A program made the position numbers and the translations under genes. From a virus, in the IMG/VR virus record IMGVR_UViG_3300024265_000074, positions 1-49,520 of that record: a stretch of 49,520 nt of DNA. One strand, written 5' to 3'. Shown one piece after another: positions 47,151 through 49,520 of the stretch. The first letter of the stretch is position 1. Every line of letters starts with the position of its first letter. The notes below the pieces were generated by a model. That model was not told the origin of the DNA. It did no database searches and worked only from the letters and a program-made list of their open reading frames with translations.

Positions 47151-47300
47151 CTATCCATTAAGAGTTAAGATTGCCAACACAAGTGTCAGCGTGATTAGTA
47201 TGCGGCGATTCGCGAAGGCTCCTGCCCTCCACGTGTGTGCCAGTATCGTTAAAAGAAGCGCTCCGAAAAACGCGTAGGTGATGATAACGCTATACATCAT
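47151..47300 (-). CDS. 49-residue two-helix membrane peptide
   Basis: Found by reading the gap: ATG 47300 has AAGGAG 8 bases upstream, stop TAG 47153-47151. The peptide begins MMYSVIITYAFFGALLLTIL, has a short basic loop (AGAFANRR) and a second helix (ILITLTLVLAILTL). Likely an inner-membrane peptide. A TGATAACG copy lies in its first codons. Confidence 0.65.
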   Translation of the reverse strand: MMYSVIITYAFFGALLLTILAHTWRAGAFANRRILITLTLVLAILTLNG

Positions 47301-47559
47301 ATGCCTGTCTCCTTAAGAAAACTTTCTGCCAAGTACGAAACCTACGGTAGAACTTGAACTGTGATTTTTGCGTAGGCGTATCGGTGCCAGCGTGCCAGTC
47401 ACGCCACCATTTCATAACATCTGCCTGATACTTCTTTCGTGTTTCCCATTCACTAGCACTGGGACTGAACCCAGTGTTCTCAATGTCACCGGGGTAAGGT
47501 CCACACGTGAGTAGGCAAGCTGTGAATTGAACTTCATATCTTCTCGTTCGCTTTCCCAT
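47290..47559 (-). CDS. Tandem-family member G
   Basis: ATG 47559 has GGAG 7 bases upstream and lies inside the end of the previous family gene. The 89-residue product begins MGKRTRRYEVQFTACLLTCGPYPG, the family signature (hydrophobic strand then Gly-x-x-Pro), followed by a Trp-rich helix (VMKWWRDWHAG) and a basic helical C-terminus with FRTWQKVF. Most divergent member (Cys before Gly, Pro-Tyr-Pro). Confidence 0.6.
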   Translation of the reverse strand: MGKRTRRYEVQFTACLLTCGPYPGDIENTGFSPSASEWETRKKYQADVMKWWRDWHAGTDTPTQKSQFKFYRRFRTWQKVFLRRQAYDV

Positions 47560-47857
47560 CCCATTGCTCCTTTGCCCAATGCATATATGAAGTGAACAAC
47601 CCTTGATGCGGGTCATGTCCAAGCTCGGCCATCATGTCCTTGATGAGCCCACTGTACGCCTTGGTATCCTGCGTGAATTGCAACGCTGCCTCTAGGCTTG
47701 CCGAACTCATGCGCGCCCACGTGTCAGGTACTTTGTCGCCGTCCACACGAGGGAATGGACTGCGCGGTGGTTCCCCGTACATCAGTATGAGAGTCACGAA
47801 TAGAATCTCATCGTCTTCAATCCGATGCACCTTCATTTGCTGCTGAGACATTGCCAT
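47534..47857 (-). CDS. Tandem-family member F
   Basis: ATG 47857 has GGGAGG 7 bases upstream and overlaps the previous stop (TAATG). The 107-residue product carries the family signature EILFVTLILMYGEPP, followed by an RSPFPRVDGDKVPDTWARM segment, helices, and a C-terminal FTSYMHWAKEQWD. It starts MAMSQQQMKVHRIEDD. Confidence 0.62.
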   Translation of the reverse strand: MAMSQQQMKVHRIEDDEILFVTLILMYGEPPRSPFPRVDGDKVPDTWARMSSASLEAALQFTQDTKAYSGLIKDMMAELGHDPHQGLFTSYMHWAKEQWDGKANEKI

Positions 47858-48159
47858 TAGTAGTCCTCCCGTTTCAAAGTGTAAGCCCAATCGAGGAACT
47901 CACGATCAAACGCTTCACGTTTACAACGGTTGTAAGTTTCACCCCACTCCCGTTCTTTAATGCCCTCCCACTTCATGTACTGATCACGACATCGATTGGT
48001 CCAGAGCGCGAGGTCGTGTATGAATATACCGAACTTGTGTAGGGATACGTCGCCTTGCAATACAGCTTGCTCATTACTGTCGGGGTGTGGGGGCGGCGCA
48101 CCGAACAATAGGATGAGCGGGAGCCACCGGGATGATAACGCGTCAATGCATGGTTCCAT
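47857..48159 (-). CDS. Tandem-family member E
   Basis: The 100-residue product carries the family signature WLPLILLFGAPPPHPDSNE, a helix with LHKFGIFIHDLALW, the palindrome-encoded TYNRCKRE and a C-terminal FDREFLDWAYTLKR. ATG 48159 lies in the end of the previous family gene and has GGAGG upstream (complement of 48169-48173). Confidence 0.62.
   Translation of the reverse strand: MEPCIDALSSRWLPLILLFGAPPPHPDSNEQAVLQGDVSLHKFGIFIHDLALWTNRCRDQYMKWEGIKEREWGETYNRCKREAFDREFLDWAYTLKREDY
47921..47935. repeat. Palindrome copy 6, inside tandem-family gene E
   Basis: TTACAAC-G-GTTGTAA; encodes YNRCK in the same frame as copy 5. Confidence 0.9.
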
Positions 48160-48424
48160 GACCCTGCCTCCTTAATTCCTTGCACCACGCTACAAACGCG
48201 TGTATGCAGTTTGTTCGTTCGCAACCCGAATCCGTATTCTCACCCACGCCCGCATGCCACAGCCAAGCTCGTACGTCTCCCTTCCATTCTATACGTGCAG
48301 ATGGATACCCCTCCCCAAGTTCCCACTCGGGCGGCATCCCAAACTGTAACAGCAACGCGACGAACAACGTCTCATCCCATTTGTCTGCCGTACGGTCGGG
48401 TGATTGGCCCGTTACGTGATTCAT
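48143..48424 (-). CDS. Tandem-family member D
   Basis: ATG 48424 is preceded by GGAGG 7 bases upstream; the ATG at 48430 is too close to it. The 93-residue product has the clearest family signature (ETLFVALLLQFGMPPEWE), then SARIEWKGDVRAWLW and a C-terminal IHAFVAWCKELR. It overlaps the previous gene by 53 bases. Confidence 0.62.
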   Translation of the reverse strand: MNHVTGQSPDRTADKWDETLFVALLLQFGMPPEWELGEGYPSARIEWKGDVRAWLWHAGVGENTDSGCERTNCIHAFVAWCKELRRQGHGTMH

Positions 48425-49004
48425 GCTCATACCTCCACCATGCGAAATAGAATTTAAGAAACTGTGCCGACTGCATAGGGAATCGACTCAGCCCTTTCTC
48501 AAGTGCCCACTTCCGAACTTCTTTCTTCCATGCACTGTGCTCACGTTGCAATTCTTCTGCTACGCTCCACCGCTGGCCGCGACGGGCAAGGATGAATTCC
48601 TCCCAGTGCGGGAGCTTGCCGAAGCGCAACATACATTCAGTACACGCGTCATCTAATGCAGGAAAGTCATGCTCCGATCGCCACTTGGCGTACGTGCTGT
48701 TCTTCCTTCTGACCAATCCCTCGATCGCATACCGCCGCTTCATCTTCATGCGCTTGTCAAACGCCTTCTGGGAAAAGCGAGCGAGCCGATCATCGGCGAT
48801 CTTCTTGCGCGCTATCTTCTTCATCCAACCAGCGAATGCGCCGTGCCTGTACACACGTGCCCAATCCATGCTCACGTAGCGCGGTGCCGACTGAAGCTGT
48901 CGTACTAACCGCGACTGCCATTGTTTCAGACTGGTGTTGTATATAGGTGCGAGCGAATGATAACGCCCACTAATCCTGCCGGTCTGCGTACCTTGCAAGT
49001 TCAT
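48372..49004 (-). CDS. Larger tandem-family member C with extra N-terminal domain
   Basis: ATG 49004 has AGGAGG 7 bases upstream. The 210-residue product has an additional basic helical domain (about 1-120, RLVRQLQSAPRYVSMDWARVYRHG, KMKRRYAIEGLVRRK) and then a family-like part (DACTECMLRFGKLPHWEEF), a helix with HSAWKKEVRKWALEKG and FLKFYFAWWRYE. The signature is degenerate (KLP instead of xPP). The basic domain suggests nucleic-acid contact. Confidence 0.6.
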   Translation of the reverse strand: MNLQGTQTGRISGRYHSLAPIYNTSLKQWQSRLVRQLQSAPRYVSMDWARVYRHGAFAGWMKKIARKKIADDRLARFSQKAFDKRMKMKRRYAIEGLVRRKNSTYAKWRSEHDFPALDDACTECMLRFGKLPHWEEFILARRGQRWSVAEELQREHSAWKKEVRKWALEKGLSRFPMQSAQFLKFYFAWWRYEHESRNGPITRPYGRQMG

Positions 49005-49254
49005 GCTCGATCCTCCTCTCAATGATATCCAATGCGATGTCAGCCGTATGACTACCCCGCTTGAATCTATGCCTGCCTGTCAAGAACTTGCGCACTTCCA
49101 AACGCCAGTCCACCCTTGGTGAGTGATTGTCTTGGTCCTTCCCTGACCACCTGTCGGGCGACGCACCAAAGAGCAACAGCACTTCCATATGTATGTCGGG
49201 ACAGTCCCGATCTATCAGCCTCTCGACCGCACGTTGGTATTGCTGCTGATTCAT
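48970..49254 (-). CDS. Tandem-family member B
   Basis: ATG 49254 overlaps the previous stop (ATGA) and has GGAGG upstream. The 94-residue product carries the signature IHMEVLLLFGASPDRWS, then HSPRVDWRLEVRKFLTG, a His/Arg-rich loop and a helical end (ALDIIERRIEHELARY). It overlaps the next gene by 35 bases. Confidence 0.62.
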   Translation of the reverse strand: MNQQQYQRAVERLIDRDCPDIHMEVLLLFGASPDRWSGKDQDNHSPRVDWRLEVRKFLTGRHRFKRGSHTADIALDIIERRIEHELARYADRQD

Positions 49255-49520
49255 TCGTCCTCCTCGTATTTCCAAGCGATGCGCTTCGATGAGACTCCCA
49301 TCTCCTTGAATGCAATCCACACGTGGAACTCATCTGTGATGCGCGCACGATCCGGCGCGTCATCTCCAATACCCCTGTTCATCAGGAACATGTGTGCCTC
49401 AAGGTTCCATACCTGTTGCATATCAACGCCCGGACCGACCCAATAGCGTATCGGGGGTGGGGGTCCGCATACCAACAACAACTCTGTGAACACCTGTTCG
49501 GCTTCCGGGTTGGGGGGCTC
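49251..49520 (-). CDS. Tandem-family member A (start outside window)
   Basis: The frame is open to the right edge, so the start lies beyond it. The visible 89 codons carry the signature VFTELLLVCGPPPPIRYW, then VDMQQVWNLEAHMFLMNRG and FHVWIAFKEM, ending in an acidic tail. A GTG at 49493 is an internal codon, not a needed start. Confidence 0.58.
   Translation of the reverse strand, partial: EPPNPEAEQVFTELLLVCGPPPPIRYWVGPGVDMQQVWNLEAHMFLMNRGIGDDAPDRARITDEFHVWIAFKEMGVSSKRIAWKYEEDE

Follow-up and report, generated by a model that had tools for sequence, protein, structure and literature searches.

In T7-type podoviruses, early operons near the early promoter region hold small genes for host takeover and anti-restriction. 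These genes are accessory and fast-evolving, and most of them are unrelated to one another. The locus described here also holds small, accessory, fast-evolving genes, but ten of its neighbours belong to one family.

A second comparison is offered by phage T4, which amplifies tifA in tandem, overcoming toxIN (PMC9391042). Those amplifications arose in laboratory evolution and have a known target, ToxN (PMC9391042). Like the array reported here, they consist of a small accessory phage gene repeated in tandem, formed by recombination and with losses elsewhere; unlike them, the array copies are ancient and about 20% identical. T4 tifA is, by analogy, a known precedent for the process but not for the protein. 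Our search of the literature on tandem arrays of small early phage paralogs found nothing specific.

The virus and its relatives

The window, that is, the whole stretch of DNA analysed, is a linear record of 49,520 bases from an uncultured virus. Judged by its gene content, it is a phage of the Rhizobium phage RHph_TM27A type. The RHph_TM27A group and Pseudomonas phage Rollin have the same type of primase/helicase and terminase as the window phage: its TerL is 43% identical to that of the RHph_TM27A group and 34% to that of Rollin, and its primase/helicase is 28% identical to that of RHph_TM27A and 25% to that of Rollin. The window also encodes a family A DNA polymerase, an SNF2 helicase, an internal virion protein and a DUF2201 metallopeptidase. 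Neither tRNAs nor Rfam families were found in it. A protein with an extended Ala-Pro dipeptide repeat (PAPAPAP..., record L011, 13257-14378, plus strand) straddles its left edge.

At 99.97%, G001 (IMGVR_UViG_3300009788_000140) represents the same phage, and it adds 13.4 kb leftward of the window. Record L016 (IMGVR_UViG_3300024265_000297) matches G001 at 99.85% identity; because it reaches across the window's right edge as well, the content past that edge can be read from it. The 64.6-kb record G002 (IMGVR_UViG_3300033388_000874) belongs to a relative, with a DNA identity of about 70%. A DNA search with positions 45000-49520 against 50,697 phage records gave no match.

The gene array and its extent

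Seven consecutive genes occupy 47290-49520, a proximal stretch of the leftward operon close to a divergent gene boundary. They are listed below from g1 to g7, each with its score in a leave-one-out test in which a profile built from six members scores the seventh, the control being 500 shuffles of that seventh.

49251-49520, minus strand: g1, 5' end off the contig (15.3 bits, best shuffle 5.2)
48970-49254, minus strand: g2, 94 aa, ortholog B2 in G002 (12.0 bits, best shuffle 6.1)
48372-49004, minus strand: g3, 210 aa, ortholog B3 in G002 (20.9 bits, best shuffle 8.9)
48143-48430, minus strand: g4, 95 aa, modelled with three helices (20.4 bits, best shuffle 9.0)
47857-48159, minus strand: g5, 100 aa, divergent (12.9 bits, best shuffle 8.5)
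47534-47857, minus strand: g6, 107 aa, ortholog B6 in G002 (9.5 bits, best shuffle 8.2)
47290-47559, minus strand: g7, 89 aa, positional counterpart B7 in G002 (21.0 bits, best shuffle 9.4)

The first-pass annotation had described seven successive overlapping minus-strand genes with ribosome sites, one of them with an added basic domain, and the open reading frames agree with this. Successive genes from g1 to g7 overlap by 4, 35, 59, 17, 1 and 26 nt, and GGAGG or AGGAG-type sites precede g2 to g7, the 5' end of g1 being off the contig. The gene g1 is complete in L016 (125-433, at most 102 aa). The basic domain is N-terminal in g3 (27 K/R against 8 D/E across 118 residues) and precedes the family domain (about 48375-48716); the C-terminal 122 aa of g3 are 58% identical to G002.

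The annotation had also placed the array's end beyond the right edge, and L016 indeed carries three more members upstream of g1. A further copy lies across the early control region from the array.

394-645 of L016, minus strand: h3, family member
642-893 of L016, minus strand: h2, family member
863-1081 of L016, minus strand: h1, family member
3038-3355 of L011, plus strand: rightward copy, the eleventh, in the divergent rightward operon

The window and L016 combined thus hold at least ten tandem genes, although no single contig holds all ten. Members are about 70-105 aa long, with one of 210 aa. L016 also has the rightward copy, whose orthologs were found independently in G002, L018 and L025.

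A single family

Every one of the seven scored above its control (9.5-21 bits; best among 500 shuffles, 5.2-9.4), and the paralogy proposed for all seven is borne out by this test. The narrowest margin, that of g6 with the window members alone, widened to 16.8 bits against a best shuffle of 5.1 once members from other phages were added to the profile. The array genes are of common descent, and the array is almost certainly one expanding family. The family profile recovered the unseen rightward copy in G002 (E 4e-9) and unseen members in L025, L034 and L016. Among weakly scoring open reading frames in L036 and L027, inspection revealed additional tandem members that share the motif. Some members are weak when taken alone: E1 and h3 lie within their own shuffles (h3 at 6.5 bits on the first profile), and E3, F1 and F2 lie barely above them. 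These five are supported by their tandem position beside better-scoring members.

The common motif consists of a helix ending in LL-x-x-G-x-P(P), followed by Trp/Tyr, Val and Trp/Phe, and a C-terminal F-x-x-W. A shared motif of this kind had been noted earlier, and it is real beyond chance; two details changed, in that the supposed hydrophobic strand is predicted as helix 1 and g2 is without the C-terminal Trp. In the window members, no segment has the length and hydrophobicity that a membrane span requires.

Searches with 25 members gave best E values of 0.01 in Pfam, of 0.003 in PHROGs (phrog_17261, of unknown function, for one L034 member) and of 0.033 in PADLOC, none of them a confident match; PADLOC held no convincing counter-defence match. 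NCBIfam, scanned with g3, g4, g7 and the rightward copy only, gave no family, and the best E of the profile against sequences of solved structures was 0.48. Queries with g3, the rightward copy and one L034 member returned nothing convincing by tblastn against phage records, and scans of viral contigs with g3, g6 and ATPase pairs returned G002 alone. The rightward copy and the terminase found no relative in scans of bacterial and archaeal genome contigs, which therefore give no hint on the host. In the records of the closest cultured relatives, the RHph_TM27A-like phages and Rollin, zero members were detected. One weak RHph_TM27A hit (E 1.1) has CxxC pairs and no GxP motif, and was rejected as a family member.

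Predicted structure

The AlphaFold2 model of g4, from an alignment of 13 members, has three helices (pLDDT 75, pTM 0.62). That of the rightward copy, from four orthologs only, has a helix, a hairpin and two helices (pLDDT 78, pTM 0.69). Compared by eye, both models have Gly-x-Pro terminating helix 1 and a variable loop linking helices 1 and 2. The predicted scaffold, with moderate confidence from two members, would be helix, Gly-x-Pro cap, variable loop or hairpin, helix and helix. The earlier note's hydrophobic strand is hence a helix in these models. Unrelated folds among the seven would have spoken against the family; the models of two members, g4 and the rightward copy of the same phage, agree with each other, a comparison that covers one of the seven window genes.

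Foldseek of both models against the PDB, and of g4 also against BFVD, gave nothing with E under 0.001. With these searches included, the family is absent, at the level of a confident match, from all databases searched here (Pfam, PHROGs, NCBIfam, PADLOC, PDB and BFVD). The top structural match of both models was the all-helical linker domain of polynucleotide phosphorylase (Z 4.5-5.5), in PDB 3h36 (Z 4.8, rmsd 4.1, 76 residues) and in hPNPase 9njb (residues about 279-354; Z 5.5, rmsd 3.4, 64 residues). We do not accept the assignment to this domain (PF03726), as there is no Pfam hit and such Z values are within reach of unrelated helical models; nothing ties the array family to RNA decay.

Variation between strains and relatives

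Two near-identical strains differ within the array. In L016 the end of g1 joins the start of g3 directly, and about 0.27-0.29 kb including g2 is missing.

49010-49297 (approximate borders), no strand: segment missing in L016, with g2 gone and the end of g1 altered

As G002 keeps a g2 ortholog at the same place, the absence looks like a loss; the L016 junction sits within the final 154 bp of its contig and could be an assembly artefact. Elsewhere L016 and G001 show 17 differences in 11,352 bp. Within g1, the comparison of L016 with the window covers about 222 bp and shows substitutions in a tight cluster with one codon gap, plus one further substitution. The cluster falls in the loop right after Gly-x-Pro, and no difference is silent at the protein level, as aligned. 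The Poisson probability of six or more differences in g1 is about 1e-6, a figure to be read with the reservation that clustered differences may have arisen at once; a single recombination, and not selection, could explain them.

Identity between window and G002 orthologs is 31-58% in the array and 56-90% for the neighbouring genes at 41609-44368. Other small early genes nearby stand at 46-53%, so the array is not alone in changing fast. The tree supports the pairs g3/B3 and g6/B6, a g2/B2 group that includes h3 on a long branch, and a clade of rightward copies; g7 and B7 are reciprocal best hits. The tree-supported pairs place the duplication before the split from G002. Copy number in related phages was 2-5: the whole record of G002 has five members, L034 four, L036 three and L027 two, most records being fragments and these counts therefore minimum numbers.

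The first-pass annotation had proposed expansion and diversification under selection. Varying copy number, the absence of g2 from a near-identical strain and high ortholog divergence support expansion and diversification, while the evidence for selection is limited to the g1 cluster and the faster divergence of orthologs, which relaxed constraint or recombination could also yield. That copies differ between near-identical viruses may point to a role in coping with differing hosts.

Dispensable genes, too, would be expected to show low ortholog identity and to lose copies. The array might be a near-neutral expansion, in which small early genes that are weakly constrained are duplicated and come and go without any specific adaptive function, as the very high divergence, the interspersed unrelated small genes and the copy loss in L016 would allow. 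We consider this unlikely: every window copy keeps an open frame, a ribosome site where visible and the scaffold residues at about 20% identity, and g2/B2, g3/B3, g6/B6 and the rightward copies have been retained across phages about 70% identical in DNA.

Early operon and repeated palindromes

Just downstream of the array lie two genes with G002 counterparts at the same place, and further along the operon lie three consecutive genes.

47151-47300, minus strand: one-span membrane protein
46811-47158, minus strand: protein of about 109-115 aa
40104-43958, minus strand: MoxR-type ATPase (phrog_1297), 435-aa protein without family, DUF2201 metallopeptidase/VWA protein

Of the early-region proteins compared, the ATPase is the best conserved, with 90% identity in G002.

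An exact 15-bp palindrome, TTACAAC[C/G]GTTGTAA, occurs about 10 times per genome and is confined to the leftward early operon and the divergent boundary. The window has six, at 39088, 39306, 42610, 43973, 45386 and 47921 (span 39088-47935), the last within the array:

47921-47935, no strand: palindrome TTACAACGGTTGTAA, inside g5

L016 has four (376, 1874, 2547 and 2934), L018 two and G002 ten, the G002 sites all falling within 43593-53692. A shuffled window averages 1.5 matches with three mismatches allowed, and the reversed pattern gives 0; the palindrome is absent from Rollin, RHph_TM27A and L034. The sites often lie inside genes and are symmetric apart from the central base. In Cluster A mycobacteriophages, the repressor bound at stoperators blocks elongation (PMC6550527). 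Stoperators are 13-bp and mostly in one orientation, whereas the sites here are 15-bp and symmetric apart from the central base. By this analogy, the palindromes repeated along the operon make up a putative stoperator-like distributed operator. The first gene of the leftward operon is conserved, encodes about 180-200 aa and gave no confident match in a family search:

2377-2916 of L016, minus strand: first leftward-operon gene
740-1333 of L018, minus strand: the same gene
53139-53723 of G002, minus strand: the same gene

With a palindrome within or near it, this gene is a candidate for the protein that binds the sites.

The position of the array, on the same strand and in the same operon as the MoxR-type ATPase, the metallopeptidase, DNA polymerase A and the primase/helicase, raises the question of whether the copies serve the phage itself, as small accessory replication or transcription factors (for example modules that bind nucleic acid or associate with the polymerase) whose number grew for reasons of dosage or subfunction. 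The basic members g3, g7 and the rightward copy (+7 to +11), and the long basic N-terminal region of g3, would fit such a role. Net charge across members runs from -8 to +11, however, with g1 at -8 and h3 at -7; copies range from 2 to 11 while core replication genes are conserved, and some records of the wider group, several of them fragments, are without detectable copies. We regard a service to the phage machinery as rather unlikely.

Proposed role

The array would consist of lineage-specific, tandemly diversifying small early proteins, whose genes follow one another head to tail in the leftward early operon. Its overlaps probably couple translation, in which case all copies would be co-produced early in infection. 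Co-production, together with a common scaffold of aromatic-rich helices, could also mean that the paralogs are different subunits of a mixed oligomer and not proteins for different partners; we find this quite improbable, since copy number varies freely between relatives. Early-operon position, small size, overlaps, variable number, charge range and rapid change fit host-interaction proteins, and we tentatively favour, from the sequences, a varied host-binding module. Under this host-interaction reading the scaffold would be a soluble binding module, and its loop and surface charge would be varied from one copy to the next. Each copy may bind a different host protein, for takeover or counter-defence, and recombination would gain and lose copies as hosts change. 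Anti-host or anti-defence factors had been the example offered in the first-pass annotation.

At least ten divergent copies cost more than 3 kb of coding space in a genome of about 63-65 kb, which argues that they probably do something that must vary. A more speculative and doubtful extension is that the new helix-GxP-loop-helix-helix scaffold is a general binding module with the loop diversified per copy and strain, the operon being a changing repertoire of inhibitors against different host factors. With one common scaffold, the copies would form a ready set for probing which host proteins phages bind and how specificity changes, and both strains that have a given copy and strains that lack it appear to occur naturally. 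If the copies are indeed counter-defence proteins, the profile would find more of them in other uncultured phages.
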